From Bradyrhizobium prioriisuperbiae (GTDB lineage Bacteria > Pseudomonadota > Alphaproteobacteria > Rhizobiales > Xanthobacteraceae): DNA of 64,000 nt. This document shows positions 18,897 to 56,210 of this stretch, piece after piece. Below the pieces are notes generated by a model, which worked only from the letters and a program-made list of their open reading frames with translations, searched no databases and was not told the DNA's origin. Each line of letters opens with the position of its first letter. The first letter of the stretch is position 1. The stretch lies in contig NZ_CP135921.1 in assembly GCF_032397745.1 (NCBI RefSeq), positions 3,286,001 through 3,350,000 on the forward strand, given 5' to 3'. The translations under genes and the position numbers were made by a program.

Positions 18897-19321
18897 CAGG
18901 GCGATCAGCCCGAGGCCCATTCACGATGAGAAAATGACACGGCGACGACGGTTTCGCCGTACCCGGGCGCGTGAGCGGACGACACGTTGTCGCCGGGGGT
19001 GAGGATTTACCATGTCACAACCTTCGCTTGAGGGCGCAAGGCGATAATGCTACGGTTTACAAATAGTTAACGGGCCTGATCCAGCGTTTCGCACCGATTG
19101 CAGCGTGGTGTGCGGAAGCGGGTAGGTAGCCTCAAGGTGATTTTTTGCACAACACGACTGAATTTCAACTGTTACGGCTGGGGCATTAGCCGGACCAAAA
19201 CGTAACGAACGTCGCAGGCAAAGCTTTGCAAAGCATGGCTCTGAAGAGCCGAACTCGAACAATCAGGTCGAGATGCGCGATGGGCTGATCGTCTGCTTTT
19301 CATAGCCGGGAGTTTTATGTG
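18897..19321. other. Upstream region of the giant repeat protein, no gene seen
   Basis: This is about 425 bases. It holds the leader and promoter of the repeat-protein gene, with a GGGAG 9 bases before its ATG. Several AT-rich tracts occur, but no clean -35/-10 pair, hairpin or small gene stood out. Confidence 0.4.
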
Positions 19322-36629: not shown

Positions 36630-38999
36630 ATGGGTCGGCGGCGGGGAAAATCGACAAAGGGTGGCGAGGCCGCATTGCTTATCGTCGGGGCGATGATCGC
36701 TGCTGCCGTTGCGATCTACCACTTTGTCGTCGAGAACGCCGCTGTGATCGGAGCAGCCGCCATCGTCTGCGGTGGCCTCTATCTTCTGCTGCGCGCTCTC
36801 TTTCGGGCAACCCGGCGCGAGGCGCCGCCGAGACCGCCTACACGCGAGCCAACCTTCAAGAATGACATTCGCCCTTCGCTAGCCAGAGGCACTCCCTCTT
36901 GGCAGGGCAGTGCGCCGGCCCGATGGGTGCACGCCAACGAGCGGGTGACCTTTGGAAAGGTGGAGATCACGGGCGGCCTTTTCTACCTTGGTGATTGCCT
37001 CGCCGTGCCCGGCGGTGTGACCGCGCAATACGCGATCAATCCCAATCTGTCCGCTCGAGCCCAGCGCGCGGATATTGATGGAAGCTCGATGCCATATTGG
37101 CCTTCCTACGCGGAGATGGATCCGGCCGCCCGTCGGGCATTCCTTGAGTGGATGCTCGGAGGTAGGCGGGATCCTGCTTACGGCATTGGGCTCATCTTCA
37201 TCTTTTTCTATGGGCTCGAGCATCGTATGTTCGTCGAGCGGGGCGATGACGCTGCGTCACTGATCGGCGAGGTCAAGAGGCTGCTCGCGATCTACGGTAC
37301 GAACGGGTCGTTTCACCACTACGCCAACCACTTTCTCAATATTGCTAATGTTCAATTGGCAGCGCCTATCCATTTGCCTGCACTGTCCGCGGAGCGTGCC
37401 GCGAACTCCGAAATGGACCTCGCGACGCGGCTGCATCTCGGTCAAAGACTGTTGGAGGCACCCATCTTATCGTCGGCGGATGACGCTCTGCGGTGGGTTC
37501 TGGCCATGCCGGACACTCATCTCAGAACGCCAGCGGTGCGATGCTTTGACGAGTTTGTCACTCTGTGGACGAAGCGCTTTGCTCAGCGATATCCGAGCGG
37601 TCTTTCCATACGGACGAACAAGCGGATCTCGCTACAATATCGCGCTGCCAGTGGCGCATTCACCGTCGATGTTCACGGACCACACGAACAGTATCTTGAC
37701 GTGTCCGGTCTTACGAAGCAACTCGATGCCTTGCGAACCCTGGTCGAGGACTGCACAGCCGAGCTCGATGGATTCAGCCGCTTCGTCGGGCGCAAACCAA
37801 ACCTCCGCAATTCCGTCGTGGCTGCGGGACTGTTACCCCCCGATATTTGGCACCAGTCGGGTTCAGCGGCGATCGATGACTTTCGTCGACAAGTCGAGAC
37901 GGCACTGGGAGCCCAGGGGCGCGCGAGCACCACGGCTCAGATGATCTTCGAGATGGCGGGCTTTGATGTCGCCAGCAGCGGAAAGATCCCCACAGCTGCT
38001 GCTGAAGAGTTAGGACGAGCGTTGGATGTGATCGACGTGGCGCTCGAACCGGACCCTAGATACGGCAGCAGTGTTCCTCGGGCCGACGAACAGGTCTTTA
38101 TTTTCAGGGCCGCGAATGGTGGCCCGGTCGATCCCTCTCGGCCAGCGTTTCGAGCGGCAAGAACCCAGGTCGAAGTCGCGGTGCTGGCAGCCGGCTCCGA
38201 TGGAGACGCTTGCTATGAAGAGCTCCAGCGTACCATCAGCCGAATTCGGGCCACACCGGACTTGTCCGGCGTGGAGCAGGCGCGTCTGATCGCGTTTGCC
38301 GTCACGACGTTTAACAGTCCTCCCAAGCAGGCGCGCGTCTTTCGCAAGCTGCAGGAGGTCGGGGAGGCCGAACGTCGGGCAATCGCGGACGCAGCTGTCG
38401 CGGTTGTGGGCGGCGGTGCGAGTATCGACATCGGCGAAGTCAAATTCCTAGAACGGCTGCACAAATCCCTCGGCCTTCCAAGCGAGGCCGTCTATCAGAG
38501 CCTTCATCGGGCGGCCGCCGAGCGGGTTGATGAGCCAGTCTCGATCAGCGAGGAGGCGCGCGCCGCAGGCATCCCGATCCCGAAGGATCCCGCCAAGCCG
38601 GCGGAACAGATAGGCGGCGCTGGTATCAAGATCGATGCCGCCAAGCTTGCCCGCACACGTCGAGAGACCGAAGCTGTCGCAGGGCTCCTGTCCGATATTT
38701 TCAGCGAGGATGTGGCAGAACCATCGCCTCCCAAGCCTGATGCCAAGATTGCCTGGGGAGGATTGGACAGACCGTATGCTGAGCTCGTTCAGCTGCTCGA
38801 ACAGCGCGGATCGATGCCACGGTCCGAGTTCGATCGCCATGCGAGAGACATCGGATTGCTTCCGGATGGGGCTATCGAGCGAATCAACGACTGGTCTTTT
38901 GATCGTTTCGATGATGCATTGATTGAAGATGGCGACGACGTGGTGCTAGCGCCGCACCTCCGTGGACGCCTCTCGGAGATGAAAGACAGGGCTGCATGA
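36630..38999 (+). CDS. sngA: TerB-domain membrane protein, SngA-like (Shango defence system)
   Basis: 789 residues from the ATG at 36630. An ATG at 36573 in frame is possible, but MGRRRGKSTKGG directly before the membrane helices is how relatives begin. Two N-terminal helices (ALLIVGAMIAAAVAIYHFVV and VIGAAAIVCGGLYLLLRALF) are followed by a TerB-N domain (about 95-290, GGLFYLGDCLAVPG and IGLIFIFFYGLEHRMFVERG). A TerB-like all-helical domain (about 530-625, IDIGEVKFLERLHKSLGLP) and a TerB-C region with PYAELVQLLEQRGSMPRSEF complete it. The stop overlaps the next ATG by four bases. In Shango, a three-gene phage-defence system, the TerB protein is one of three essential parts. Its job is not known; a membrane sensor is plausible. 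Confidence 0.82.
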   Translation: MGRRRGKSTKGGEAALLIVGAMIAAAVAIYHFVVENAAVIGAAAIVCGGLYLLLRALFRATRREAPPRPPTREPTFKNDIRPSLARGTPSWQGSAPARWVHANERVTFGKVEITGGLFYLGDCLAVPGGVTAQYAINPNLSARAQRADIDGSSMPYWPSYAEMDPAARRAFLEWMLGGRRDPAYGIGLIFIFFYGLEHRMFVERGDDAASLIGEVKRLLAIYGTNGSFHHYANHFLNIANVQLAAPIHLPALSAERAANSEMDLATRLHLGQRLLEAPILSSADDALRWVLAMPDTHLRTPAVRCFDEFVTLWTKRFAQRYPSGLSIRTNKRISLQYRAASGAFTVDVHGPHEQYLDVSGLTKQLDALRTLVEDCTAELDGFSRFVGRKPNLRNSVVAAGLLPPDIWHQSGSAAIDDFRRQVETALGAQGRASTTAQMIFEMAGFDVASSGKIPTAAAEELGRALDVIDVALEPDPRYGSSVPRADEQVFIFRAANGGPVDPSRPAFRAARTQVEVAVLAAGSDGDACYEELQRTISRIRATPDLSGVEQARLIAFAVTTFNSPPKQARVFRKLQEVGEAERRAIADAAVAVVGGGASIDIGEVKFLERLHKSLGLPSEAVYQSLHRAAAERVDEPVSISEEARAAGIPIPKDPAKPAEQIGGAGIKIDAAKLARTRRETEAVAGLLSDIFSEDVAEPSPPKPDAKIAWGGLDRPYAELVQLLEQRGSMPRSEFDRHARDIGLLPDGAIERINDWSFDRFDDALIEDGDDVVLAPHLRGRLSEMKDRAA

Positions 39000-40309
39000 A
39001 CAAGAAGCCGATTAAGCCCAGAGAGCGGGACACGATCATACAGGCTCTGTCCGCTGGTGTCGTTCCACGTCTCGGTCTGCCCCACATCCAAGTCGGCCGC
39101 GCGGGCGAAATCGGTGCACTGGTGCGCGACATCGATCGGATCGCGGATGGGGGAGCCGCCGTCCGCTTCGTGATCGGTGACTACGGCGCCGGCAAGACGT
39201 TCTTCGCCGGCGTCGTGCGCCTCATCGCATTAGAGAAGCGCTGCGTGACGATGCATGCCGACCTGTCGCCCAATCGGCGCATTCATGCAAGCGCCGGTCA
39301 GGCGCGCGCGCTCTATGCGGAAGCTGTGAACAACATGGCGACCCGCAATAAGCCTGAAGGTGGTGCGCTGCAAAGTATCGCCGAGCGTCTGGTGATGGAT
39401 GCGGTGAAGGAAGCTGGCGAGAAGGGCGTCGCAGTTGAAGGCCTTATCGACCAGAAGCTCGAGGCGATTACCCAATTCTCAGGTGGCTACGATTTCGCTA
39501 CGGTATTGAAGGCCTATTGGCGAGGAAGCGAAGAGGCCAACGACGCCCTGAAAGAATGCGCTATTCGTTGGCTCCGCGCGGAGTATTCAACCAAAACGGA
39601 TGCCAAAAAGGACCTCGGTGTCAGAAGCATCATCGATGACGAAAATGTCTATGAATCGCTGAAATGTCTCGGCTGCCTGGTGCGGATTGCAGGTTATAGT
39701 GGCCTTTTGGTCATGTTTGACGAGATGGCTCATATCTACAAGCTTCAGAATTCCCAGTCCCGCAAGCAGAACTATGAACAGCTTCTCGACATAGTGAACG
39801 ACTCGCTCCAAGGCATGACCTCAGGAATAGGCTTCATCATGTGCGGTACGCCCGACTTCCTGCTGGACACGCGCCGAGGTGTGTTTAGCTATGAGGCCCT
39901 GCAGTCCAGGTTGGCGGAAAACAGCTTTGCGAGCGGCGGGCTTGTTGATTTTTCTGGTCCAGTGATCCGGCTGCAGAGCCTGACGCCAGAAGATCTCTTC
40001 GTTCTCCTCACCAACATCAGGTTGGTCTTCGCAAGCGGAGATCCCACGAAATTCCTGGTGCCGGACGAAGCGTTGACCGCGTTCATGGAGTATTGCAACC
40101 GCAAGATCGGTGAGTCCTATTTTCGGACGCCTCGTTCGACCGTGAAAGCATTCGTGCAGATGCTCGCTGTCCTTGAACAGAACCTCGGCGTCAAGTGGCA
40201 GGAGTTGCTTGATCGCATACCGATTGCCCCGGATGCTCCGGACGATACGGCATCGAGCGAAGAGAGTGGAGACGGCGATGAGCTCACCAGCCTCCGACTC
40301 AACTCTTGA
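38996..40309 (+). CDS. sngB: BREX-type ATP-binding protein (BrxD/DUF2791 family), SngB-like
   Basis: 437 residues. Walker A is FVIGDYGAGKTFF (about residues 58-70) and Walker B is GLLVMFDEMAHIYK (about 236-249). GIGFIMCGTPDFLLDTRRGV and RLQSLTPEDLFVLLTNI are typical of the AAA ATPases first named from BREX loci. The gene overlaps sngA by four bases and the helicase gene by 32 bases. No pglZ, brxC, brxL or pglX gene is present, so the locus is not BREX. It matches the ATPase of Shango, where it is expected to couple nucleotide hydrolysis to the helicase or to sensing. Confidence 0.85.
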   Translation: MNKKPIKPRERDTIIQALSAGVVPRLGLPHIQVGRAGEIGALVRDIDRIADGGAAVRFVIGDYGAGKTFFAGVVRLIALEKRCVTMHADLSPNRRIHASAGQARALYAEAVNNMATRNKPEGGALQSIAERLVMDAVKEAGEKGVAVEGLIDQKLEAITQFSGGYDFATVLKAYWRGSEEANDALKECAIRWLRAEYSTKTDAKKDLGVRSIIDDENVYESLKCLGCLVRIAGYSGLLVMFDEMAHIYKLQNSQSRKQNYEQLLDIVNDSLQGMTSGIGFIMCGTPDFLLDTRRGVFSYEALQSRLAENSFASGGLVDFSGPVIRLQSLTPEDLFVLLTNIRLVFASGDPTKFLVPDEALTAFMEYCNRKIGESYFRTPRSTVKAFVQMLAVLEQNLGVKWQELLDRIPIAPDAPDDTASSEESGDGDELTSLRLNS

Positions 40310-42512
40310 GGGGGCCTACCACAAACTGCACGGGGCCATCCGCCGATGGATTCACGATCAGGGATGGGATGAGCTGCGCGAGATTCAGGCGCGCACAATC
40401 TTTGCCGTTCTCGACGATGACCGCGACGTTCTAATTGCTGCAACAACCGCTGCGGGGAAGACAGAAGCGGCCTTTCTGCCGATCCTGACCGCGATCGCTG
40501 ACAGGAAAGAGTTTGGATTCTCGGTCCTGTATATCAGTCCGCTGAAGGCCCTAATCAACGATCAGTTCAAACGTCTCGAGGGACTCTGCGAGAACATGGA
40601 GATCCCTGTCGTCAAATGGCACGGCGATGCTCCTCAGGGAGACAAGAAGCGGGCCCTTTCCAAGCCGCAAGGGGTCGCGCTCATCACGCCGGAATCGATC
40701 GAGGCGATGCTCGCCCGGCGTCCGGCCGATGCAAAACGTCTGCTGTCGTCGGCTGACTTCATCGTCATCGACGAGGTCCATTCGTTCCTTCAGGGACCGC
40801 GCGGCCTCCATCTCGCAAGCCTGCTGCGCCGCATCGATGCCATGTCCCAGCGGCCGGCGCGGCGCGTCGGCCTGTCCGCAACCATCGGCGATTTGTTTCA
40901 GGCGGCAGCATGGCTCCGTCCAACCTCGCCGGAGACTGTCCGGATATTAGAAGCGAAGTCTGATTCTCCCGAACTCAAGCTGCAGATCCGTGGCTATGTC
41001 GAGCCACCCGAGCTTGATGATCCCGATCACGCCGAAGGAGGAACGGACGTCGAAGAAATGCCGCGCAGGATCGCACTCGACGATATCGCGGACCATTTGT
41101 TCAAGACCCTGCGAACTTCCAACAACCTCGTCTTCGGAGGTTCACGGCGTACCGTCGAGTCCACTGCCGATCGCCTGCGCAGGAGGTCGGACAAGGCAGA
41201 TGTGCCGAACGAGTTCTTTCCCCATCACGGCAGTCTTTCCAAGACCCTTCGGGAAGAGCTGGAGGATCGACTTAAGGATGGAAAATTGCCGACGACCGCG
41301 ATCTGTACCTCGACCCTAGAGTTGGGTGTCGATATCGGATCGGTCAAATCGGTTGCTCAAATTGGGGCACCTCGCTCGCTTTCGTCGCTGAAGCAGAGGC
41401 TCGGTAGAACGGGCCGGCGGAAAGGCGTACCGTCGGTCCTTCGTGTCTATGTGCGTGAGCCGAACATTGATCAACGTTCCGGCGTGATCGACCGGCTCAG
41501 GCCGAATACCATCCGCTCGGTCGCCGTCATTCGGCTGCTGCTGCAAAAATTCGTCGAGCCGGCCGGCCAGGTGCCGGAGGTCGCTTCAACCTTGATCCAC
41601 CAGATCCTCTCTGTCATCGCTGAACGGGGTGGGATCAGGGCGCGGCCACTCTACGATCTCTTGTGCGGGGCGGGGCCTTTCGCCGCCATCTCGACCGGAG
41701 AATTTGCAGATCTCCTTCGTCATCTCGCTTCCGACACGATCCGCTTCATTGAGCAATCGGGTGATGGCCTGATCATGCTCGCAGAGAAGGGCGAGCAGAC
41801 GGTTCAATCCCGAAGTTTCTTTGCTGTGTTCGAGTCAGCAGAAGAGTGGCGCTTGACAATCGAGGGCAAGACCCTCGGTACGCTGCCAATATCTTTCCCG
41901 GTCCATAAAGACGGTCTTGTGGTGTTTGCGGGCCGCAGATGGATCATCAACGATGTCGACGAAAGGACCAACACCCTCTTCGTGGCCCCGCATCCGGGAG
42001 GCGTCGTACCCCGGTTTGAACGTGCCGACGGCGAGCGCCTGCATGACCGGCTGGCTGCCGAGATGCGTAATGTCTATCTGTCCACTGACGAGCCACCATA
42101 TCTCGACGATAAGGCGCGGGAGCTCTTGGCTGAGGGGCGAGAAACGTTCCGTGAGCTTGACCTCGAAAAGCGAAGGGTCGTCGAAGAAGAGCGTGATCTG
42201 CACCTGTTTCTCTGGCGGGGCTCCCAAGCAACCGCTGTGTTTGGAGCCGCGGCGGCCATGGCGGGACTGCCGGGGCAAGTGCATGACCTCGGTCTGACGC
42301 TTGCCAAGACAAACGCAACTGAGGCTTTGCCGAAGTTGCGAGGGCTAGGTCAACTTGATCGCGCCAGTGCGATTGACGTCTCTGCCTTTGTCGAGAACAT
42401 CGCCGCCGGTAAATTCCGGGAACAGGTGCCGGCGACGCTGGCGCGATCTCTGTGGGCTAGACAAAACGGCGCGGAAATAGACAATATACCGGAGATTGCA
42501 AGCGAGCTGTGA
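40278..42512 (+). CDS. sngC: Lhr-like DEAD/DEAH-box helicase, SngC-like
   Basis: 744 residues from the ATG at 40278, which has GGAG eight bases upstream and gives the usual start AYHKLHGAIRRWIHDQGWDE. The motifs are Q-motif LREIQARTI, motif I TTAAGKT (about 56-62), motif II DEVH (165-168), motif III LSATIG (about 199-204), and motif VI QRLGRTGRRKG. The long C-terminal region resembles Lhr-family large helicases. An SF2 helicase beside a BREX-like ATPase and a TerB protein is the Shango set. It should unwind DNA or RNA in the cytoplasm. It ends one base into the next gene (TGATG). Confidence 0.87.
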   Translation: MSSPASDSTLEGAYHKLHGAIRRWIHDQGWDELREIQARTIFAVLDDDRDVLIAATTAAGKTEAAFLPILTAIADRKEFGFSVLYISPLKALINDQFKRLEGLCENMEIPVVKWHGDAPQGDKKRALSKPQGVALITPESIEAMLARRPADAKRLLSSADFIVIDEVHSFLQGPRGLHLASLLRRIDAMSQRPARRVGLSATIGDLFQAAAWLRPTSPETVRILEAKSDSPELKLQIRGYVEPPELDDPDHAEGGTDVEEMPRRIALDDIADHLFKTLRTSNNLVFGGSRRTVESTADRLRRRSDKADVPNEFFPHHGSLSKTLREELEDRLKDGKLPTTAICTSTLELGVDIGSVKSVAQIGAPRSLSSLKQRLGRTGRRKGVPSVLRVYVREPNIDQRSGVIDRLRPNTIRSVAVIRLLLQKFVEPAGQVPEVASTLIHQILSVIAERGGIRARPLYDLLCGAGPFAAISTGEFADLLRHLASDTIRFIEQSGDGLIMLAEKGEQTVQSRSFFAVFESAEEWRLTIEGKTLGTLPISFPVHKDGLVVFAGRRWIINDVDERTNTLFVAPHPGGVVPRFERADGERLHDRLAAEMRNVYLSTDEPPYLDDKARELLAEGRETFRELDLEKRRVVEEERDLHLFLWRGSQATAVFGAAAAMAGLPGQVHDLGLTLAKTNATEALPKLRGLGQLDRASAIDVSAFVENIAAGKFREQVPATLARSLWARQNGAEIDNIPEIASEL

Positions 42513-45500
42513 TGCAGCGTCAGCATTTGGCGGGGGAAATGCAGAAGATCGGCGCCAAAATCAACCTTAGTGCGGGCGACCTCGTCGGGCACCTGAATTG
42601 CCATTATCTGACCAATCTCGACCTCAAGGTCGCTAACGGCGAGTTGGCCAAGCCAAAGATCTGGGACCCCGTCCTCGAAGCACTGGCCGCGCGTGGCGCT
42701 GAGCATGAGCAGGGCTATATCGATCATTTGAAATCGGGAGGGCTCGCGGTCACGCAGATCGGCGGGATCGGTGTCGACGGTACGGCAGTGGCAGCCACGC
42801 GTGAGGCGATGGCGCGGGGCGATGCGGTCATCGCTCAAGGAGCACTCCAGGTCGGCCTCTGGAACGGGCGGGCTGACATTTTGCTTCGCGTGGAGAAACC
42901 AAGTCAGTTAGGTGCGTGGTCTTATGAGGTTACCGATACGAAGCTGGCCCGGGAGACCAAGGGCAATACGGTCCTTCAGATCAGCCTCTATTCCGACATG
43001 CTGTCGAACATACAGGGCGTAGCGCCTGTTGCAGCCCATGTCGTGACACCTGGGACGAACTTCGAACCGGAAGCGTACCGGATCGCCGACTATGCAGCCT
43101 ACTATCGCCATGTGAGAGGCAGTTTGGAGCGAGCGATCGCGGGACCGGCCGGCACTAGCGTCGGCCCCTATCCCGAGCCGATCGATCATTGCGACGTTTG
43201 CAGGTGGCGTCGGCATTGCGAAGAAAAGAGGCGAGCGGATGACCACATGTCCCTCGTCGCTGGTATCAGCAAGTCCCAGATCGGTGAATTAGAGAGGCGC
43301 GGCGTCGGCACGATGGCGGCGCTCGCAGCCGTGCCCATCCCTCTGCCATGGCGACCCGATCGCGGGGCCGCGAGCAGCTACGAGAGGGTTCGCGAACAGG
43401 CAAGGATTCAGGTCGAGGGTCGGACCGCAGACGCGATGCTGCACGAGGTCCTGCCGCTCGAGCCGGGTTTTGGGCTATTTCGTTTACCCGAACCGTCAGC
43501 GGGTGACATCTTTTTCGATTTCGAGGGAGATCCGTTTGTCGGTGATGGTGGGCTCGAGTTCCTGTTCGGCTACCTCTACGCCGATGACGGCGGGGTCTGG
43601 CAATATACCGGCGACTGGGCGTCCACGCGCCATGAGGAGAGGGCTGCGTTCGAGCGGTTCATTGATTTCGTCGTCGAACGGCAGAAAACCCATCCGAACC
43701 TTCACATCTATCACTTCGCTCCCTACGAGCCTGCTGCGCTGAAGCGGTTGATGGGACGGTATGCGACGCGAGAGAATGACGTCGACAACCTTCTCCGTGG
43801 AGAGGTATTCGTTGATCTCTATGCAGTGGTTCGCCACGCGATCCGCGCTAGCGTGGAAAGCTACTCCATCAAGAAGCTCGAGCCGCTCTACGGATTCAAT
43901 CGATCAGTCGCTCTGGAGGAGGTCGGGGCCGTGATGGCGAGAACCCAGGCGCGGCTGGAGATGGCCGACCCCGAGGGCATTCCGGAGGACGATAAGGCGG
44001 CTGTCAAAGGCTATAACAATGACGATTGCGCCTCCACGGAGGCGCTGCGGCGTTGGCTTGAGGCCCTTCGAGCCGACCAGATCGCAAACGGGGCGACAAT
44101 CGCCCGGCCTACCGCGGTGGTAGTTGAACTGAGCGAGGAGCTGACCGCCTGGCAGCAGAAGGTGGCAGCACTTTCGGCTCGCCTCCTTGAGGGCGTGCCT
44201 GACGACGCCAACGAACGCACGGACGAGCAGGAGGGGCGATGGCTTCTTGCTTCCATGCTGGATTGGCACGGCCGCGAGAAGAAGGCCGTCTGGTGGGAAT
44301 ACTTCAGGCTGCGCGACTTGTCTGCCGACGATCTCCTCCATGAGCGTAGCGGCCTCGCCGACATGGTCTTTCTGGAAGAGGTGCCCGGGAAGGGAAAGGT
44401 GCCCACCCATCGCTACCGGTTTGCCCCACAGGATACCGATATCCGCACCGGGGATGACCTCCACACCATCGGGGGTGACAAGTTCGGCAAAGTCACAGCC
44501 GTATCACTTGAGGCCCGAACGATCGACATCAAGAAGCGCAAGGATACCGCAGACGTTCATGCGCCAGCGGTCTTTGCTCATAGCTCTGTCGATACTCAGG
44601 TACTGGCAGACGCCGTGATGCGGCTTGGCGAGCATGTGGCCGAGCACGGCATCGAGGCGGATGGCGACTATCGGGCGGCCCGCGACTTGGTCTTGGCCGT
44701 AGCGCCACGTCTGCAGGGACTGCCACTGCAGCAGGAAGGTGAAGCCAGTCTTGCCACCGCTATTCGTGTGGCGCTGACGCTCGATCGGAGCGTGTTCCCG
44801 CTGCAAGGCCCGCCTGGCGCTGGAAAGACCTTTACAGGCGCCAGGATGATCTGCGGCCTGGCGCAAGAGGGAAAGACGATCGGGATTACTGCAAACAGTC
44901 ACAAGGTCATTCGCAATCTGCTGGACGAGGTGATCAAAGCCGCGGGTGAGGAGCGGCAAGCCATCCGTTGCGTGCAGAAGGTTTCTGATGATGAGGACGA
45001 TCTGCCCAGCCTGACCTTCACCAAGGACAACGGTGAATTTCTCGATGCGCTGGGCGGGTCTGCTAGCGTGGGCGGGGCAACTGCCTGGTTCTGGGCGAGG
45101 CCAGACGCTTCGCAATGCGTCGACGTGCTTTTCATCGACGAAGCTGCCCAGATGTCCCTGGCAAATGTGCTCGCGGTGTCGCAATCGGCCAAAAGCGTCG
45201 TGCTTCTCGGCGATCCACGCCAGCTCGAGCAACCCATTCAGGGAAGCCATCCAGATGGCGCCGATGCCTCGGCGCTGGACCATATCCTTGGACCGCATGC
45301 CACGATTCCTGCCGATCGCGGCCTGTTTCTCCCGGAAACCTGGCGGCTGCATCCGACAATCTGCGCCTTCAATTCGGAGCTCTTCTACGAGAGCAGGCTG
45401 TTTTCGCGGCCTGGTCTTGAGAAGCAGCAGGTCAAGTCAACAGGAAAGCTTAGGGGAGCAGGCCTTCGCTACCTCCCGATCGAGCATTCCGGCAACCAAA

Positions 45501-45940
45501 GTTCGTCGCAGGAAGAAGCCGATGCCGTTCGTGACCTCGTGACTAACATCCTAGGAAGTGCCACGACTTGGGTGAACCGGGACGACGTCGAGGCTGTCAT
45601 CAAACTGAACGACATTCTGATCATCGCGCCCTACAACGCCCAAGTCTTTGAATTGCAAGAGCGCATCCCGGGTGGGCGTGTGGGAACGGTCGACAAGTTT
45701 CAGGGGCAGGAGGCTCCGATCGTTATCTATTCCGTCACAACCTCGAGCCACCTCGATGCCCCGCGCGGCATGGAATTCCTCTACAGCGCCAATCGCCTGA
45801 ACGTGGCGACATCACGTGCGAAGTGCATCTGCGTGATGGTTGCTTCGCCACGTATCTTTGAAGCGGAGTGCCGGACCCCAAGGCAGATGCAGCTCGCCAA
45901 TGCCTTTTGCCGCTATTTGGAGATGGCGACGCCAGTCTGA
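42512..45940 (+). CDS. TM0106-type RecB-like nuclease fused to RNase H-like exonuclease and SF1 helicase
   Basis: 1142 residues from the ATG at 42512; an ATG at 42539, with a GGGGGA stretch before it, is an alternative. The first part is a RecB/Cas4-type nuclease domain with GRADILL, YEVTDTKLA (Asp and Lys of the PD-(D/E)xK site) and QISLYSDML. It ends in HCDVCRWRRHCEEKRRADDH, a Cas4-like cluster of cysteines. An RNase H-fold exonuclease (IFFDFEGDPFVGDGG, then NNDDCASTEALRRWL) follows. The C-terminal part is an SF1 helicase: Walker A LQGPPGAGKTFTGARM, LFIDEAAQMS, LLGDPRQLEQPIQGS, VGTVDKFQGQEAPIVIYS and NRLNVATSRAK. It overlaps the SngC-like gene and therefore belongs to the operon, as an addition to the three-gene Shango core. 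Confidence 0.85.
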   Translation: MQRQHLAGEMQKIGAKINLSAGDLVGHLNCHYLTNLDLKVANGELAKPKIWDPVLEALAARGAEHEQGYIDHLKSGGLAVTQIGGIGVDGTAVAATREAMARGDAVIAQGALQVGLWNGRADILLRVEKPSQLGAWSYEVTDTKLARETKGNTVLQISLYSDMLSNIQGVAPVAAHVVTPGTNFEPEAYRIADYAAYYRHVRGSLERAIAGPAGTSVGPYPEPIDHCDVCRWRRHCEEKRRADDHMSLVAGISKSQIGELERRGVGTMAALAAVPIPLPWRPDRGAASSYERVREQARIQVEGRTADAMLHEVLPLEPGFGLFRLPEPSAGDIFFDFEGDPFVGDGGLEFLFGYLYADDGGVWQYTGDWASTRHEERAAFERFIDFVVERQKTHPNLHIYHFAPYEPAALKRLMGRYATRENDVDNLLRGEVFVDLYAVVRHAIRASVESYSIKKLEPLYGFNRSVALEEVGAVMARTQARLEMADPEGIPEDDKAAVKGYNNDDCASTEALRRWLEALRADQIANGATIARPTAVVVELSEELTAWQQKVAALSARLLEGVPDDANERTDEQEGRWLLASMLDWHGREKKAVWWEYFRLRDLSADDLLHERSGLADMVFLEEVPGKGKVPTHRYRFAPQDTDIRTGDDLHTIGGDKFGKVTAVSLEARTIDIKKRKDTADVHAPAVFAHSSVDTQVLADAVMRLGEHVAEHGIEADGDYRAARDLVLAVAPRLQGLPLQQEGEASLATAIRVALTLDRSVFPLQGPPGAGKTFTGARMICGLAQEGKTIGITANSHKVIRNLLDEVIKAAGEERQAIRCVQKVSDDEDDLPSLTFTKDNGEFLDALGGSASVGGATAWFWARPDASQCVDVLFIDEAAQMSLANVLAVSQSAKSVVLLGDPRQLEQPIQGSHPDGADASALDHILGPHATIPADRGLFLPETWRLHPTICAFNSELFYESRLFSRPGLEKQQVKSTGKLRGAGLRYLPIEHSGNQSSSQEEADAVRDLVTNILGSATTWVNRDDVEAVIKLNDILIIAPYNAQVFELQERIPGGRVGTVDKFQGQEAPIVIYSVTTSSHLDAPRGMEFLYSANRLNVATSRAKCICVMVASPRIFEAECRTPRQMQLANAFCRYLEMATPV

Positions 45941-46620: not shown

Positions 46621-47166
46621 TCAGGAAGTCGTTTTGGACCGCGGCTTGCGCGAGTTTACGGGCCCGTCCGACAGCCCGCTCCGACCAACCCCCCTACTGG
46701 CAATCTCGATCTCGCGCTGGAGAGCCTCAATTGTCCGGCTGTGCCGGGCCTCATCCTCGCGGCGGGCGTTGCGTTCCGATTCCAGGAGTATTTTCAGTAC
46801 CCGGATCTCGCTCTCCAGATGGGCAACACTACCCTCCGGCCCTAGGTCGACCGGGGCCGTGCTCGCCGCGGAGACGACGTCGGTCGGCTTGGCCGGCGCA
46901 CTCGTTGACGCCACGGCCGGACCCGGCGTAAGTCCGGACTGTTCCGGTCCGGACTGATCAGTCCGTAAACTTTGGACCTTCGGCGGTCCGGACCGTGGTG
47001 GTGAGCCGTGGGCCCCGGCCATATACTCCTTTAAGGTCGCGGAAATTCGGGTCGAGCCGCCGCCGCCGAGGCGCTTACGGACCGAGGCGCGCGTCAGCGG
47101 CGAACCCTCGGCGGCAAGCGCCCTGACCGCCGCGACGATCTCCCCGTCGGTGAATTGTCTGCTCAC
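46621..47166 (-). CDS. KfrA_N-like DNA-binding coiled-coil protein coupled to Wadjet
   Basis: 181 residues. The N-terminal 45 residues (TDGEIVAAVRALAAEGSPLT, then RASVRKRLGGGGSTRISATL and KEY) match the KfrA_N pattern of plasmid proteins: A..AL..EG..PT...VR..LG.GS...I...L..W. A flexible Pro/Ser/Ala-rich linker (about 50-110) is followed by a coiled coil (about 115-160, LESEIRVLKILLESERNARR) and a basic tail. The ATG overlaps the jetD stop by four bases, so it is the fifth gene of the Wadjet operon. KfrA proteins bind DNA at their own promoters and form fibres on plasmids. Here it could be a regulator, or a DNA-binding accessory to plasmid sensing; that is inference. Confidence 0.7.
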   Translation of the reverse strand: MSRQFTDGEIVAAVRALAAEGSPLTRASVRKRLGGGGSTRISATLKEYMAGAHGSPPRSGPPKVQSLRTDQSGPEQSGLTPGPAVASTSAPAKPTDVVSAASTAPVDLGPEGSVAHLESEIRVLKILLESERNARREDEARHSRTIEALQREIEIASRGVGRSGLSDGPVNSRKPRSKTTS

Positions 47167-48347
47167 TGCGCCGCCTCCAGCGGATCCTCGGGTCTCAACA
47201 TCTCCTGCTCGAAAGTGCGGCAGGAATTGCCGGAAAGATACCGTGCGAGTTCGCCGAAGTCGTCGTCTCTTGCGGCGATGCCGGAGACGCGCCTCAGCGG
47301 TCGGCTTTCGGCGCCGTGGCGCTCGGCGAGCGAGACCGTCATGAGGTGGAGCCGGACGGGGCGGCCGGCGGCTTTGCGTATCGAGTCAGCGATCAGGAGG
47401 CCCCCGGCATCGACGTCGCCCCAATGGAAGATCGGAGCATGGGGCCACAACGCCGCCATGCGGCCGACCAGCAAGCGCACCGGCGGAGGCGGAAAGCCGT
47501 GCGTGTAGATCACGGCTCCGCGGCCGATCTCGCGGCATTGGCCGTTAAAGCTGGTCCAGTTCTCGACCGTCATGATGAAGTCGGGGTCGTCTCCGTCCGC
47601 CTTGCAGCCCGCGACGAGGTCGGGGTTGACGGCGCTCCAGGGGACGGCGCTGCCATACACCCGGATTCCTACCGGATCGGCGAAGCTGACTGGAGCGCGC
47701 AGGCAGACGGGGTGCCCGAACCTGACCAGACCCAACGTCTCCCAGATCTCATCCTGCCTGGAGTCGTCTGGAAGGGCCAGTGCGCCGCGCAGAATGGCGC
47801 ACACCGCCGCCGCGTGGCGCTCCAGGAATTTTGAGGAGCCGGATGTCTGCACGGACGCTGTACGGAAATGCGTGCCGAAGGCGACGTCGAGCAGGCCGGC
47901 GGCGGCGGCGAACACGTTGCGGACGAGCTCCGGCTCAGGCGGAAGGCGATACCATTCGGCACCCTTGGCCCATTTGGCGCCGGCGTCCTCGATGACCTGA
48001 TCGAGACCGTCGCGGCCGGCGGCTGCCGCCCGCGCAGCCGCAATTGCGGCCGCCGCCCGCGCGCCGGCCCGCGTCGTGCCGAGCTCGCGCGCCAGCAGGT
48101 CGGCGTCGGCGAGACGCACGCGTTCGATCACCTCGCGCCGGTTACCGGATCCCCGGACGAGCGCTACCGCACCCGCGCGCTCCGCACCTTCGAGCCTTTC
48201 CCTCCAGGCCCGCTGCGAGGCGGGCGACGGATCCTTCGGAGACCCGGCGGCGACGGATAGCGTGCGGACCGTGGTCGCGTTGCGGTCGGCGGATTCCAGC
48301 AACCTGACGAGCAACTTGCGTGCAGACTCGCTGCCGGAAATCGTCAC
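47163..48347 (-). CDS. jetD: Wadjet nuclease subunit JetD (DUF3322/DUF2220)
   Basis: 394 residues from the GTG at 48347, which overlaps the jetC stop (GTGA). The open frame runs on to 49595 inside jetC, but that is antisense-frame shadow. The N-terminal part is helical (SARKLLVRLLESADRNATTV). The C-terminal Toprim-like part has ENWTSFNGQCREIGRGAVIY, FHWGDVDAGGLLIADSIR and the closing RLHLMTVSLAERHG, which supply the acidic metal-binding residues. In Wadjet, JetD cuts circular plasmid DNA after the JetABC complex has extruded it. Confidence 0.86.
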   Translation of the reverse strand: MTISGSESARKLLVRLLESADRNATTVRTLSVAAGSPKDPSPASQRAWRERLEGAERAGAVALVRGSGNRREVIERVRLADADLLARELGTTRAGARAAAAIAAARAAAAGRDGLDQVIEDAGAKWAKGAEWYRLPPEPELVRNVFAAAAGLLDVAFGTHFRTASVQTSGSSKFLERHAAAVCAILRGALALPDDSRQDEIWETLGLVRFGHPVCLRAPVSFADPVGIRVYGSAVPWSAVNPDLVAGCKADGDDPDFIMTVENWTSFNGQCREIGRGAVIYTHGFPPPPVRLLVGRMAALWPHAPIFHWGDVDAGGLLIADSIRKAAGRPVRLHLMTVSLAERHGAESRPLRRVSGIAARDDDFGELARYLSGNSCRTFEQEMLRPEDPLEAAQ

Positions 48348-51300
48348 TGCGCCGCCTCCAGCGCGGCGGCCTCGTCCGCGGATGCGGTACGCTCGCGGTA
48401 TGCGTCGTATCCCTTGACGCGCGGGTCTTCGTCGGCGAGGTCGTCGCGCAGCGCTTCGGATACCTTTTCCGGCACGATGTGGATGTACTCTTCGTCCCGC
48501 GCGACGTTGATGAAGGTCTCCATGCCGTGCGCGAGCACGCGGGACTTCGTGTCGGGAGCGGCGGCGACGATCTGCAGATTCGTGTCGCTCATGAACTTCA
48601 GCATCTTCACGGTGTGCTCGGTGTCCAATCCGTCGAGAGCGTCGTCGAGCAGAATGATGCCGAGCGACCCGTTCCTGCGGTCCGGCGACGACGATTTGGC
48701 CGAGACCGCGGCCGCCATCGCGATGTACTGCGGAACCACGCCCTCTCCGATCGAGCCCTTCTTCATGCGCTGGCGTAGCGTCGAGACGACATCGCCGGTG
48801 CCGGCGTCCTTCACTAGCACGTCGAACGTCCAGTACGCCTTCGGGTCCCGCAGATCGTTCAGCGCGTTCTGGTCGTCGCTTTCGATCATGTCGGCTATGG
48901 AGCGGACGGCGCGCGCCTGCTCGGTGTCGGCGTCGAGCGCGACCAGGGCGGGCATCGCCCAATTCGGATCCTCCGTTGCGCGCTCGACCAGATCGACGAT
49001 CGCTCCGAACTTTTCGACGTGGTTCATCCTGAAGACGTACTTCTCGCCGTAGAACACGTGCCGTTCCATCTCGCGATTGAGGTCGTCGCGGGTGTCGCGG
49101 ATCTTCGAGAACGCGTGGACGAGCAGGCTGACGAACTCGTTGCGGAACGCATCCGAGAGCTGACGGCCCGCTTCCTCCGCCTCCGCGGTCTTGTCGAGCA
49201 GCGTCGAGTTCTGCAGCAGATCGCGCATCGCCCGCGCCTCGCCGAGCCGCTCGCGCCACGCTTCCACGCTGAGCACCGGCATCGGCACCTCCGGGAAGTC
49301 GGCACCGTGCTGGCCCCACGCTTCGTGCCCGCGCGCGACCCCGGCGCGGCTCTCCTCGGCGCGGGTCTCGGCCGTCTCCAGCGTCTGCTTGTGCTCGCGC
49401 CAGAAGTCCTTGGCTTCGGTCAGGATGCCGAAAACGCGACGTCTTACATCCTGCGCAGCGTCGTGTTCGCCCAACGCCTTCGCGTCGCGATCGAGAAGGG
49501 CGGCGGCGAACTGTTGACCCGCGACCTCCAACTCCACTTCCGTGCGCGTGACCGCATCGCGTGCATCGGTGGCGGCTTGGAGAGCGGCAGACCATTGCTT
49601 GTCTACCTTCGTCTGTTCGGCTTCGAGCTCGCGTATCTGCTGTTCCTTCTCGGGATCGCGTTGTCCACGCAGGTTCTGCAGCCTGCCACGGCTATCCTCC
49701 ACCGCGGTCTTGGCGCGCCGCAGGCCGTCGACGACCGAACCCAGTGTCGTCTGCGAACTACTCGATTGCCCGGTAAGCGTCCGGTAGGCGTCCTTGGCGG
49801 TTTCGAGGACTCTCCTTTCGGTCTCGGCCTCCTTCAGTTCCCCATGCAAGCGCTGAAGCTCGGCCACCGCGTTCTGAGCCGCCTGGGCGCGTCCCCGGCG
49901 TCCGACCAGCAGATAGCGTGGCGGCCGCATCTTGTAGGACGAGAAACGGGTCGCGCGCATGAGATCGGTCGTCACCGCGTTCGGCTCACGCTCGATGTCG
50001 GCTTCGGTTCGCACCCGCTTGACGCGTCCCAGCATGGCATTGACGTAGGCGCCCGCGGTGGCGTTCTCGACCTCGACGACGGCGGCCAGCGAATCCGCGG
50101 CCGGCGCCGGCGCGCCCGCGCTCAGAACCGATGGTTTGACGATCTCGACTCCGTCGCTGCGGGTCGATCGCCGCTGTACCTTCACCGCATCGATGTATTG
50201 GAGGGGATCGTGCAGGATCATCGCTTCCCGCGCGTTGCCGAGCACGGACTCGACGGCGTTGCGCCATTCCTCCTTGCCCTCTCTGATGTCGATCAGATCG
50301 CAGAGCGGCGTCGCGGCGATCTTGGCGTCGGCGAGATCTTTGCGCAGGTTCTCCGCCTCCGGACGCAACAGCGCCTGGTCGATGGCCTCCGAGCGCGCCC
50401 TCCGCGCGAGATCCTCGCGTATCCGGTTGATTCGATCCTCGCGGGCCGCCGCGGCGCTGTGGGCGCGGTTGAGTTCGCGGACCGCGTTCGCTCCGACCTC
50501 GTCGACGACCCGTTGCAATAGCTCGGCATCGGAAGCCATCGATTCGATCTCGACGTCGTCCTGAGCCCGGCGGAAGTCGGCGCCGGCGTCCGCGACTCGT
50601 CGGACGTTGCGGCTCTCGGCGTCCTTCATGTAGCCCACGGCCGTGCGGATCGCATCGATCGCTTCTGCGCGGCGCTTGAGCTCCCTGCGAACGTCGCGCA
50701 TCTTCGACTCTTCGCCGGAAAGATCCCGCTCGGCATGTCGGATGCTGGTTTCCAGCGCTTGAGTGCCGCCGGAGTTGCGCGCCTCCTCGACGCGCCGGGC
50801 GGCTTCTTTCTTGCGCTCATCCGCTTTCTTTTCCTCTTCCACGGCGACGTCGACCTTGGTCCGCAGTCCGACCAGCTTCTCCTCGATGGCATCGATCTCG
50901 GACTGGCGTTGGGTCACGGCGGCCTCCATCGCCGCCGCCACGCGGCCGCGGGCCTCGCGATCGTCCTCAGCGGCCTTCGAGTAGTGACCGACGACGATCC
51001 CGAGCGAGGTGATCTGTCGGTTGATGCTGTCGATGGTGCGGACGATCTCGCGATAGAACGCCAGACGTTCGCGCATCCGTCCGATGTCGATGATCTCGGT
51101 TTCGAGGACATGGGTGCGCATGAAGGCCGTGATGTCGCCGACCGGCTGGAAGACCAGCGCGCGCTTCACCGCCTTATAGTAGGAATGGGCATCCGCGTGC
51201 CACGAACCGTAGGTGAGCAGGTTGAGCAGGTAAGTCGAGTAGTCCGAGGCGCTGTCGCATTCCTCGACCTTTCGGCCGCTCGCGCGCAGACCGTCGACTG

Positions 51301-51799
51301 CCTGGTCGAAGCCTTTCGCCATCTCGCCTTCGTCTGTCGAGAATACGAGATCGGCCGTGGTCACGCCGCCCCCGGTCACGATCATGAAGCGTGTGTTGGG
51401 CCGCTCGCGGTGTTCGTGCGCCACGACATGCACGACACCCGCGACTTCTCCACCCTCGCGGGTCCGGAAGGACAGGCCGATCCAGGTCTGCGAACTCTTG
51501 CGCACGACCTTGGCCCTCTCGTTCTCGTCGTGCCGGACGACGCCGAGACAGTACTCCTGAAGAGACCTGTGTGCGTCCGGCCTGTTCTGTCGTACAGCAG
51601 CAGCGTTGTAGACGACGAGGTCGCCGGCGCCGCCGGTCAAGCCCGTCTGGATCGCGTCGATGCACGAGCTCTTGCCGCTGCGGTTCGGCCCCAGGAACAC
51701 GGTGTTGCCGGAAAGCTCGATGTCCTCGCGTTCGATCAGGTAGAAGTCGATGAGGGAAAGGCGGACGATCTGCGGCGTCCCGAATTGCGGCTCGCTCAT
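48344..51799 (-). CDS. jetC: Wadjet SMC-like ATPase JetC
   Basis: 1151 residues. The N-terminal ATPase half has Walker A FLGPNRSGKSSCIDAIQTGL (G37 to S44 region). Two long coiled-coil stretches (about 260-480 and 620-900) flank a hinge-like middle. The C-terminal half has Walker B and D-loop GIILLDDALDGLDTEHTVKM (near 1085). This is a MukB/SbcC-like Wadjet motor, which extrudes DNA loops. It overlaps jetB by four bases and jetD by four bases. Confidence 0.9.
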   Translation of the reverse strand: MSEPQFGTPQIVRLSLIDFYLIEREDIELSGNTVFLGPNRSGKSSCIDAIQTGLTGGAGDLVVYNAAAVRQNRPDAHRSLQEYCLGVVRHDENERAKVVRKSSQTWIGLSFRTREGGEVAGVVHVVAHEHRERPNTRFMIVTGGGVTTADLVFSTDEGEMAKGFDQAVDGLRASGRKVEECDSASDYSTYLLNLLTYGSWHADAHSYYKAVKRALVFQPVGDITAFMRTHVLETEIIDIGRMRERLAFYREIVRTIDSINRQITSLGIVVGHYSKAAEDDREARGRVAAAMEAAVTQRQSEIDAIEEKLVGLRTKVDVAVEEEKKADERKKEAARRVEEARNSGGTQALETSIRHAERDLSGEESKMRDVRRELKRRAEAIDAIRTAVGYMKDAESRNVRRVADAGADFRRAQDDVEIESMASDAELLQRVVDEVGANAVRELNRAHSAAAAREDRINRIREDLARRARSEAIDQALLRPEAENLRKDLADAKIAATPLCDLIDIREGKEEWRNAVESVLGNAREAMILHDPLQYIDAVKVQRRSTRSDGVEIVKPSVLSAGAPAPAADSLAAVVEVENATAGAYVNAMLGRVKRVRTEADIEREPNAVTTDLMRATRFSSYKMRPPRYLLVGRRGRAQAAQNAVAELQRLHGELKEAETERRVLETAKDAYRTLTGQSSSSQTTLGSVVDGLRRAKTAVEDSRGRLQNLRGQRDPEKEQQIRELEAEQTKVDKQWSAALQAATDARDAVTRTEVELEVAGQQFAAALLDRDAKALGEHDAAQDVRRRVFGILTEAKDFWREHKQTLETAETRAEESRAGVARGHEAWGQHGADFPEVPMPVLSVEAWRERLGEARAMRDLLQNSTLLDKTAEAEEAGRQLSDAFRNEFVSLLVHAFSKIRDTRDDLNREMERHVFYGEKYVFRMNHVEKFGAIVDLVERATEDPNWAMPALVALDADTEQARAVRSIADMIESDDQNALNDLRDPKAYWTFDVLVKDAGTGDVVSTLRQRMKKGSIGEGVVPQYIAMAAAVSAKSSSPDRRNGSLGIILLDDALDGLDTEHTVKMLKFMSDTNLQIVAAAPDTKSRVLAHGMETFINVARDEEYIHIVPEKVSEALRDDLADEDPRVKGYDAYRERTASADEAAALEAAQ

Positions 51800-52479
51800 G
51801 CCTCGGCCTTTTCATGATCGTTACCGTCGGCATCGGGTCGAGCTTCGCGGGCGTAGCGCCTCAGCGCAGCGAGCGGCTCGGAAACGGCGACGAGACTGAT
51901 CGACGGTCGTACCGTGAACGGCATTCCTTCGTGGAAGGTCGGTGGCAGCGAAGCTTGGATGAGTCCATGATTCTTCAGGAACCGGAGGATGTCGAGCATC
52001 CTGACCTTGCCGGGCGGATCCTTTCTAGTCTTCTCTCTCCACAAGTCGTAGAGACCGTCGGTGTGCCACTCGGCGTGACCGTTCACCAGTCCGGTGCTCT
52101 GGATCGCGTTGTCGTAGTAGGCGCGGAGCAACAGGATGGCGATGGCCTCATCGACGCGCAACGGCTGAGCCTGGTGAGCCTCGCGCTTGTCGCGTGGCGT
52201 GTCCGGCGCCTCCGCGATCGGCGGCATGAGACAGACCATCTTGATGTTGCCCGAAGTGTTGAACTGGAGCCGCCAGCCGAACACGTCGAACAGCCGCTCG
52301 GCGAAGGGCCGGACCTCATCGTCGTTCAGAAGCTCGTAGATGTCCTTGGAGCCGAAGTCGTTGCCGAAGATAAACTGTCGCTGCATCAGCGTGCGGAAGG
52401 CCCGCTGAAAGGCGACCTTCGGATGGTGCGTTCTGGCGAGCACTTCCTCGTATTCCTGCAATCCCGACAGCGCGTTCAT
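51796..52479 (-). CDS. jetB: Wadjet MukE-like subunit JetB (DUF4194)
   Basis: 227 residues from the ATG at 52479, starting MNALSGLQEYEEVLARTHHP; the longer open frame upstream lies inside jetA and is not coding. The central helices read VRPFAERLFDVFGWRLQFNT and the later AIAILLLRAYYDNAIQSTGL, which fit the winged-helix DUF4194 type that bridges JetA and JetC. Four-base overlaps with jetA and jetC ensure balanced synthesis of the complex. Confidence 0.85.
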   Translation of the reverse strand: MNALSGLQEYEEVLARTHHPKVAFQRAFRTLMQRQFIFGNDFGSKDIYELLNDDEVRPFAERLFDVFGWRLQFNTSGNIKMVCLMPPIAEAPDTPRDKREAHQAQPLRVDEAIAILLLRAYYDNAIQSTGLVNGHAEWHTDGLYDLWREKTRKDPPGKVRMLDILRFLKNHGLIQASLPPTFHEGMPFTVRPSISLVAVSEPLAALRRYAREARPDADGNDHEKAEA

Positions 52480-53864
52480 CGCGGAGGCCCCGTCATTCTT
52501 GTGGCGGTGAAGTTGGGAAGTTCGCCGTATCGGCATACGGCGACGCCGCTCGCCGGTTCGAGGATCCAGCCTTTGATGCGGCGACCGCGGCCGGTCAGCG
52601 CCAGAAGGGCGATGTATCGCCAGGTGAACCAGTCCTTTGCATTGGCCGGCGCGAGCACGACCGCATCTCCGCCGCCCGTCGAGCCGAGATAGGCGAGCGC
52701 GTGTCCGGGGGTCGGTTCGGAAGCGAAATCGAACGCGCGGCAATCCTTGATGAACCGCTTCCGGTAGGGATCTTCGGGTGGCCGGCGAAGGATGCGGGGC
52801 TCGGGCGGGGGGAGGGGCTCCCTGGCCTCGGGGAAACGGGATTCTCCCACCGGCTCGAGGCAGTTCAGAAGGGGCAGGACGCAGGGAAGCTCGACGTGAT
52901 CGTCGAGGTGGGCCAACTCCTCGAGGCAGGACTCTACGCGCTGCCGTATAGTCGCCGGATTGCGGCCGATGAAACGAAGGATGTCCCGGATGCGTCCCTC
53001 GATGCCGACCTGACCCTGGTCGATGCGGACGCGAAGACGCTCGATGTCGTCGAACGAGGTCGAGATCTCGGCAAGCCGCCTGCGTATGAGCGTCTCGGCT
53101 TCGGCTTCCGTCGCCGCATGACCGGCTTCGACGTAGGCGGCCATCGCCTTTTCCATCGCCGCCGCGGAGCCGAGGATTTCGCGGACGGCGCGGGTGACGT
53201 GGTGGCGCGATCGCCACGGATTGTTCTGAGACAGGATCTTGGTCCAGTCGCGGATTAGAATCCTGTCGACGAACTCCGCGAAAAACACGTCGACTGAATC
53301 GTCCATTCCCTCTGCCGCGTTAAGTCGCCGCGTCACGGACAGCAGCGCTGCGTCTATGCCGGCCATGTGGCGTCGGAATCCGACGGCCGTCTGCCACGCG
53401 GCATCGATGTTGGTGGCGTGCATCGTCGGATCGTCTGCGGCCGCGCCGATCAGGGAGGAGACCTGCGATACCAGTCCCGTGAAGCTCTTGGCGACGTTCT
53501 CTTTCAGGTCGCGAAGCACCGTCATCAGTCGCCGATAGCCTTCCGGCATCGTCACCCTGATCAGCCAGCGGTCCGACTCCTCGACCAACCAGCCGCCCTC
53601 CCGCATCTTCAGATAAAGGTAGTCGGACGACGCCGCTTCAGGCTCATCCCCATCGGGCTCGCCGACGGCCGCCGGCGGCGTCGGCATGCCCTCGATCGCT
53701 GCGGCGATCGAGTTCTTGACCTGATCGCGCTCGGGATTCTCCAGCGCCATTTCGCCGAAATGCGTCGCGCAAAGCCGCAACAGCGACGCTTCGGCTGCCA
53801 ACGCGTGGCGGCCAGTGAAGATCTTGAAGGCTTCGGGCGGCACGCAACCAAACAGATCGCTCAT
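52476..53864 (-). CDS. jetA: Wadjet kleisin-like subunit JetA
   Basis: 462 residues, first gene of the operon. It starts with SDLFGCVPPEAFKIFTGRHA, contains YLYLKMREGGWLVEESDRWL and long helices including SFDDIERLRVRIDQ, and ends with a small C-terminal domain. This is the MukF-like kleisin part that joins JetB and JetC. AAGGAAGGGGATCGG precedes the ATG, a very strong ribosome site. The exact Wadjet subtype was not assigned, since that needs profile searches. Confidence 0.84.
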   Translation of the reverse strand: MSDLFGCVPPEAFKIFTGRHALAAEASLLRLCATHFGEMALENPERDQVKNSIAAAIEGMPTPPAAVGEPDGDEPEAASSDYLYLKMREGGWLVEESDRWLIRVTMPEGYRRLMTVLRDLKENVAKSFTGLVSQVSSLIGAAADDPTMHATNIDAAWQTAVGFRRHMAGIDAALLSVTRRLNAAEGMDDSVDVFFAEFVDRILIRDWTKILSQNNPWRSRHHVTRAVREILGSAAAMEKAMAAYVEAGHAATEAEAETLIRRRLAEISTSFDDIERLRVRIDQGQVGIEGRIRDILRFIGRNPATIRQRVESCLEELAHLDDHVELPCVLPLLNCLEPVGESRFPEAREPLPPPEPRILRRPPEDPYRKRFIKDCRAFDFASEPTPGHALAYLGSTGGGDAVVLAPANAKDWFTWRYIALLALTGRGRRIKGWILEPASGVAVCRYGELPNFTATRMTGPPR

Positions 53865-56052: not shown

Positions 56053-56210
56053 CTGGCCCTCCGCGCGCCAAATATTGAATCTCCTCAATTACTTGATTCT
56101 CAGCCTCAATGACCGCGACCGTCTGACTCAGTACGATTAGCCGAAGTTCGTCGCGGCGTCGATCCCAGCGCCGAGCGGGCCACAGCCCGCCATCCATCTC
56201 GCCACCGCCA

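Follow-up and report, generated by a model that had tools for sequence, protein, structure and literature searches.

Introduction

The Shango system of Escherichia coli was originally described by Millman (2022). In PMC10250203, Johnson and colleagues described Shango as three genes and cloned these three from PA14, where a large multi-domain helicase gene was recorded alongside them. TerB was recorded as part of Shango, with no function assigned, in PMC10952713. No account of a Shango mechanism was found in the available parts of these two papers or in related titles and abstract beginnings, and the part of PMC11090510 consulted, which deals with TerY and Dna2-like helicases, made no mention of Shango or TerB. 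Here, a 64,000-nt stretch of the genome of Bradyrhizobium prioriisuperbiae was analyzed (GCF_032397745.1, NZ_CP135921.1, positions 3,286,001-3,350,000; the whole stretch is referred to as the window), in which a Shango operon is followed by a gene for a TM0106-type nuclease-helicase, called Nuc below.

On balance, we favor the interpretation that the fourth gene of this operon was gained in an ancestor of one Bradyrhizobium lineage from a widespread and promiscuous nuclease-helicase family, and that it adds an end-degrading effector. The resulting variant, whose function is predicted, appears to be lineage-specific and built by docking of such a nuclease-helicase. No description of a Nuc-bearing Shango variant was found among the listed titles or abstract beginnings of open-licence papers.

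Organization of the operon

Four open frames, all on the + strand, span window positions 36630-45940 (Table 1) of a genome that consists of one contig of 9.08 Mb. A preliminary description of this DNA, made before any database search, had read a TerB protein, a BREX-type ATPase and an Lhr-like helicase as Shango. PADLOC confirmed this assignment: SngA, SngB, and SngC were the best models for the first three genes, with the SngA match spanning residues 73-785 of the sngA product. The coordinates, with sngA, sngB, and sngC abutting in this order on a single strand, correspond to the Shango arrangement, and proteins, order and strand are the same as in PMC10250203. That paper also bears out the earlier statement that Shango is described as three genes, to which the window adds a nuclease-helicase gene after sngC. 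SngB and SngC also scored on the BREX models BrxD and BrxHI, respectively, but SngB reached 158.8 bits on the BrxD model versus a cut-off of 350. In addition, none of pglX, pglZ, brxC, and brxL was the best family of any window protein given to PADLOC or Pfam, a set that represented part of the window.

All four genes had been said to overlap. This is correct for sngA and sngB, which share 4 bp (38996-38999), and for sngB and sngC, which share 32 bp given an sngC start at 40278; the sngA frame is already open from a TTG at 36564 and the sngC frame from 40173. Overlap of Nuc with sngC exists only if Nuc starts at a GTG at 42509, which yields a protein of 1143 amino acids (aa). At seven loci (the window, L032, and L034-L038), the ATG corresponding in the alignment to the first Nuc residue of the relatives lies 22-36 bp past the sngC stop, and in L034-L038 it is the earliest possible start codon in frame. 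In the window, this conserved ATG is located at 42539, leaving a gap of 26 bp after sngC, with a G-rich stretch before the ATG. The overlap is therefore probably a start-codon artefact and, because of the conserved start, was rejected as evidence of coupling.

The genome of B. prioriisuperbiae contained a single SngB match (expectation value (E) 1e-100 or better) and a single Nuc match (E 1e-60 or better), and the closest named relatives of the operon proteins originated from Bradyrhizobium. Numbers of promoter-like sites (2 observed versus 2.7) and of terminator-like sites (11 versus 8.4, standard deviation 2.7) were near the shuffled expectation.

Domains and catalytic residues of Nuc

Nuc scored 227.2 bits on TIGR03491, the model of TM0106 RecB-like nucleases, here fused to a superfamily 1 (SF1) helicase, versus a curated cut-off of 97.45, and its relatives carry the name 'TM0106 family RecB-like putative nuclease'. 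The model refers to a putative nuclease and names no pathway, whereas within one lineage the window gene has a fixed place after sngC. Pfam identified RNase_H_2, AAA_11, AAA_12, and AAA_30 domains, in agreement with the earlier reading of the fourth protein as a Cas4/RecB-like nuclease with RNase H-like and helicase parts.

Residues are numbered from the methionine at 42539 unless the 1143-aa form is stated. Residues D113, D133, K135, Q147, and Y151 and cysteines C21, C218, C221, and C227 of the nuclease domain were invariant among the 35 aligned proteins (35/35), as were D327, E329, D426, Y492, and D496 of the exonuclease domain (35/35). By Cas4/AddB/Dna2 motifs, the N-terminal part is a putative iron-cluster nuclease; the exonuclease residues are named after DEDD(y) motifs. 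Helicase motifs comprised a Walker A motif (757-764), D867-E868, and R1093. The catalytic residues of the nuclease, exonuclease, and helicase parts are intact. A structure model from a wider alignment reached a predicted local distance difference test score (pLDDT) of 87.5; an earlier model was poor (pLDDT 54.5), with a too-uniform alignment as the probable cause. In a fold comparison, the helicase part of the model matched the UPF1/DNA2 class; the N-terminal nuclease and DEDD parts were barely covered.

The PADLOC models MkoA, MkoC, and DpdJ matched the helicase part of Nuc. For the Mokosh models, the best-matching stretches were confined to residues 943-1136 (MkoA) and 935-1132 (MkoC) of the 1143-aa form. 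In line with the preliminary view of Shango as a three-gene system, no model of PADLOC 2.0.0 (2023) names Nuc as a Shango component.

Nuc resembles the eukaryotic nuclease-helicase Dna2 in its Cas4/RecB nuclease with four conserved cysteines and its C-terminal UPF1-class SF1 helicase. It differs in the DEDD exonuclease domain between nuclease and helicase, and identity is 18-19%. This layout raises the alternative that Nuc serves the host in DNA repair or recombination as a bacterial counterpart of Dna2, with no part in defence. Among 14 well-known control genomes, TIGR03491 matched seven (three above the cut-off), which points in the same direction. The distribution of Nuc is, however, patchy: within the bacterial family, it was detected in 14 of 248 genomes. 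Moreover, 67 plasmid records contained a relative at E 1e-40, and defence genes were found among the Nuc neighbors tested. We consider a repair role improbable.

Linkage of Nuc to sngABC in close relatives

A scan of genome contigs with SngB yielded 13 loci, eight of which (L032-L038 and L044) encoded an SngB at least 80% identical to that of the window. Downstream of sngC, or of what remained of the operon, all eight carried Nuc or a remnant of it. Nuc was a full open frame in L032, L034, L035, and L036 (4/8). It was split by a single frameshift in a metagenome-assembled genome (L033) and cut by a contig end in L037. In Bradyrhizobium retamae (L044), a deletion from the middle of sngB into Nuc left a Nuc remnant; its match stops at the same approximate residue 733 as the truncated copy of Bradyrhizobium valentinum (L038), which is discussed below. 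In L032 (Bradyrhizobium sp. Tv2a-2), SngB was 98% identical; at L032:2472-4121, the first 243 SngA residues had no match, and two open frames (505 and 299 aa) precede the remaining part of SngA. No Nuc was found at the other five loci (SngB at most 58% identical), some of which are on short contigs.

In a SngC tree of 44 rows, the eight rows with a downstream Nuc (window and L032-L038) formed one clade with support 99/99, and its sister group of five rows lacked Nuc in the stretches fetched. Because one SngC clade bears Nuc and its sister group does not, the position of Nuc behind sngC is explained most simply by a single gain that was then retained. The ratio of nonsynonymous to synonymous substitution rates (dN/dS) was 0.04-0.15 across the operon gene pairs for which it was computable. 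Within a pair, dS was alike for all four genes, with values above approximately 1.8 saturated and one not computable. As far as these comparisons reach, Nuc is co-inherited with sngABC in one Bradyrhizobium lineage.

Linkage in a wider survey

SngB was searched at E 1e-100 or better in listings of 248, 367, and 369 genomes, which partly overlap. Nuc was searched at E 1e-60 or better; since scoring was limited to two candidates in each genome, its count is a lower bound. SngB was detected in 33 genomes, two of which (G208, G876) had no SngC match, and Nuc in at least 41; six genomes contained both (G000, G016, G081, G248, G350, and G415). In the three linked genomes, Nuc was located downstream (G000) or divergently (G016 and G350). 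The G016 copy (L070) adjoins sngA. Linkage in G350 is deduced from a contig (C77) with the start of sngA and a divergent Nuc, while the rest of sngABC lies on another (C61; L082, L087). Linkage in G081 could not be judged on short contigs; Shango contigs L095, L099, L107, L110, L114, and L115 end near the genes.

Several results weigh against a gained fourth gene that serves Shango. Linkage was restricted to 3 of 33 SngB genomes (window genome included) and 3 of 41 Nuc genomes. A Nuc tree of 26 rows required two changes for the state 'downstream of Shango', and its starred set of seven rows included the divergent G016 copy and a G122 copy without Shango nearby; the placement of the downstream, G016, and G122 copies indicates that Nuc moved between contexts. 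Shango loci on Klebsiella, Pantoea, and Arthrobacter plasmids comprise, by annotation, three genes only, and according to PMC10250203 three Shango genes sufficed for protection in PAO1. In B. valentinum (L038), Nuc is frameshifted and its match stops at approximately residue 733, beside open sngA, sngB, and sngC; Nuc can therefore be lost alone.

A general four-gene subtype of Shango was rejected, since only 3/33 SngB genomes showed linkage. The preliminary description had proposed a distinct, nuclease-armed variant with Nuc as a stable fourth component, to be refuted if Nuc were not linked to sngABC in other genomes. This proposal holds for one Bradyrhizobium lineage (8/8 close loci; one SngC clade) and fails for Shango in general; because linkage was complete among close loci yet rare among SngB and Nuc genomes at large, the variant is best regarded as lineage-specific.

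On plasmids, Nuc was not seen at 13 of 14 Shango loci (L005, L119-L122, L124, and L133-L139) within approximately 8 kb on each side of sngB, or less at record ends. At the other locus (L006, 37 kb examined), it was approximately 15 kb away on the opposite strand. Viral contigs contained no close SngB relative and 11 Nuc relatives. Checked against the query set only, the latter were accompanied by no SngA or SngB and by one weak SngC-like helicase match (L146).

Other genomic contexts of the Nuc family

Scans of Nuc neighborhoods covered 21 chosen neighbor proteins. Nuc relatives of at least 53% identity were found directly beside ZacABC (L073), BrxL and PglZ (L083), and, in L003, TmtA and a DrmD-like helicase. 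Others had ZacC (L077), RmrA with a type III restriction pair (L076), PtuA (L081), or SIR2 (L002) no more than a few kb away. We take Zac, Ptu, and Tmt to stand for Azaca, Septu, and Tiamat. Since its members lie beside or near several other defence systems, the family looks like a promiscuous defence-island module. A second branch, approximately 36-40% identical to the window copy (L004, L007, L089, and others), includes sphingomonad and rhizobial plasmids and had different neighbors where examined.

These contexts would also fit an independent module of a single gene, for defence or DNA degradation, that came to lie behind sngC and travels with it by linkage, without working with Shango. The separate start of Nuc with its preceding G-rich stretch, its solitary decay in L038, and the separation of Shango and Nuc by approximately 15 kb on opposite strands in Mesorhizobium AR02 agree with such hitchhiking. 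Against it, Nuc or part of it is retained with unchanged position and orientation at all eight close loci, over near-saturated synonymous divergence, and two further Shango lineages have Nuc next to sngA (G016 and, by inference, G350). Moreover, co-occurrence of SngB and Nuc in six genomes exceeded the approximately 1.4 expected (P ~0.002) in a crude Fisher test, uncorrected for kinship, whose genome total was guessed from handle numbers (924-984). Hitchhiking is an explanation that deserves attention, even if we think it rather unlikely.

If, as we favor, the gained gene serves Shango, the four genes would be co-transcribed and Nuc would be a physical partner and effector with DNA as its substrate. 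SngA may sense or mark infection, and the BrxD-like ATPase SngB may load or drive the Lhr-like helicase SngC on phage DNA. Nuc would then unwind and degrade strands or ends exposed by SngB and SngC, adding a processive end-degrading effector to an sngABC core that could also act without it.

Other end-processing genes beside Shango

For a selection of Shango loci, neighboring genes were assigned with Pfam or taken from deposited annotation. SbcD and SbcC genes were located behind sngC in G354 and its congener G433, which were counted as one case because their SbcC proteins are 100% identical. At L108:11829-16042, the sbcD and sbcC starts each overlap the preceding stop by 4 bp; in G433 (L106), the sbcD match is divided over two frames. 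Neither genome had a second SbcC match at E 1e-10. PD-(D/E)XK and UvrD (AddAB-like) genes followed sngC on plasmids of Methylorubrum CM4, Polymorphobacter, where one small gene separates sngC from the AddB-like gene, and Sulfitobacter. Such pairs stand directly or closely behind sngC at L139:6015-11826, L121:11823-17200, and L133:12471-17200, and a same-strand downstream AddAB-like or SbcCD-like pair was present at 4 of 14 plasmid Shango loci (L121, L133, L136, and L139). In G187, a PD-(D/E)XK and UvrD pair is divergent from sngA, and contig C2 of this genome has another AddA-like match. In G102, an AddA-like helicase lies upstream of sngA with a 1292-aa protein between them, and another AddA-like match occurs elsewhere in the genome. 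Proteins at L091:13704-17582 (1292 aa) and L102:12380-16438 (1352 aa), both beside Shango, had no match to Pfam (E 1e-5) or PADLOC (E 1e-3). Shango of Phaeobacter is accompanied by DUF4297, an ATPase, and then a 'DNA repair exonuclease' (weak SbcD match) with an AAA ATPase, and MkoC-like helicases occur near Shango in G554 and Azospirillum B510. Unrelated neighbors included ribonucleotide reductase, relaxase, trypsin-like and subtilase-type peptidases, a transposase, and an HD domain, and many of the Shango loci examined had no Nuc, AddAB-like, or SbcCD-like genes.

Among 60 plasmid records of the AddB family, at least eight had sngC within approximately 1.1 kb, seven of them within 0.3 kb; this count is a lower bound, since the records were compared with the best 60 of 671 SngC records, and one module in near-identical copies accounts for six of the eight. 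Three other AddB records were examined and stood beside ubiquitin-like, restriction-type, and HipA genes. In a BREX control, 2 of 9 alphaproteobacterial plasmids (among 60 listed of 272 PglZ records) had AddB approximately 12 kb from pglZ. On one, from Sinorhizobium (L154), the AddB-like gene, annotated without a UvrD partner, is divergent to BREX: its start is approximately 290 bp away from a WYL gene ahead of the BREX genes, on the opposite strand and with a small hypothetical gene between; the position on the other is known from coordinates only. Because AddB also flanks BREX, Shango is not alone in having end-processing genes docked beside it, and AddAB-like pairs were rejected as Shango-specific parts. 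With ZorA as a control, only 1 of 24 records was alphaproteobacterial, which was too few, and a JetC control gave no plasmid match at E 1e-30.

A broader and distinctly doubtful hypothesis regards Shango as a platform to which exchangeable machines for DNA-end processing are recruited, either behind sngC or directly divergent from sngA. Its partners would be Dna2-like in the window clade, G016, and G350, AddB-AddA-like in Sulfitobacter, Methylorubrum CM4, Polymorphobacter, and G187, and SbcD-SbcC in G354/G433 and, after two intervening genes, Phaeobacter.

Other elements in the window

A type I Wadjet set (46621-53864, - strand, approximate starts) is convergent to the Shango operon (Table 1). 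IS66 and DDE_5 transposases are located near the defence genes, at 62587-63972 and 54769-56088, respectively. At 19319-26938 (+), a gene encodes a protein of 2539 aa, probably a large surface or secreted one, which carries DUF4347, cadherin-like domains, and nine Big_12 stretches.

Table 1. Coordinates of the Shango operon, the predicted Nuc domains, and the adjacent Wadjet set in the window.
Feature	Position	Strand	Basis
sngA, TerB_N + TerB_C protein, 789 aa	36630..38999	+	PADLOC SngA 1.7e-80; Pfam TerB_N 5e-42, TerB_C 1.8e-23
sngB, BrxC/BrxD-type ATPase, 437 aa	38996..40309	+	PADLOC SngB 3.7e-167; Pfam BrxC_BrxD 1e-145
sngC, Lhr/BrxHI-like DEAD/H helicase, 744 aa	40278..42512	+	PADLOC SngC 1.4e-245; Pfam DEAD + Helicase_C
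Nuc, TM0106-type RecB/Cas4 nuclease + DEDD exonuclease + SF1 helicase, 1133 aa	42539..45940	+	TIGR03491 4e-67; conserved start; catalytic residues
Nuc, Cas4/RecB-like nuclease domain, residues ~1-240 (approximate limits)	42539..43258	+	Alignment of 35 proteins
Nuc, RNase H-like DEDD(y) exonuclease domain, residues 324-507 (334-517 in 1143-aa form)	43508..44059	+	Pfam RNase_H_2 7.3e-17
Nuc, UPF1/DNA2-class SF1 helicase domain, residues 740-1103	44756..45847	+	Pfam AAA_11/AAA_12; fold match
JetA	52476-53864	-	Type I Wadjet
JetB	51796-52452	-	Type I Wadjet
JetC	48344-51799	-	Type I Wadjet
JetD	47163-48329	-	Type I Wadjet
KfrA_N-domain gene	46621-47166	-	Pfam; overlaps jetD end by 4 bp

Implications for Shango

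A lineage with an intact nuclease-helicase behind sngC, together with unrelated end-processing enzymes at a similar place elsewhere, points to exposed DNA ends as a possible product or target of Shango. If the platform hypothesis were true, the role of SngABC would be to generate DNA ends or present them, and a resection nuclease of any kind could complete the process.

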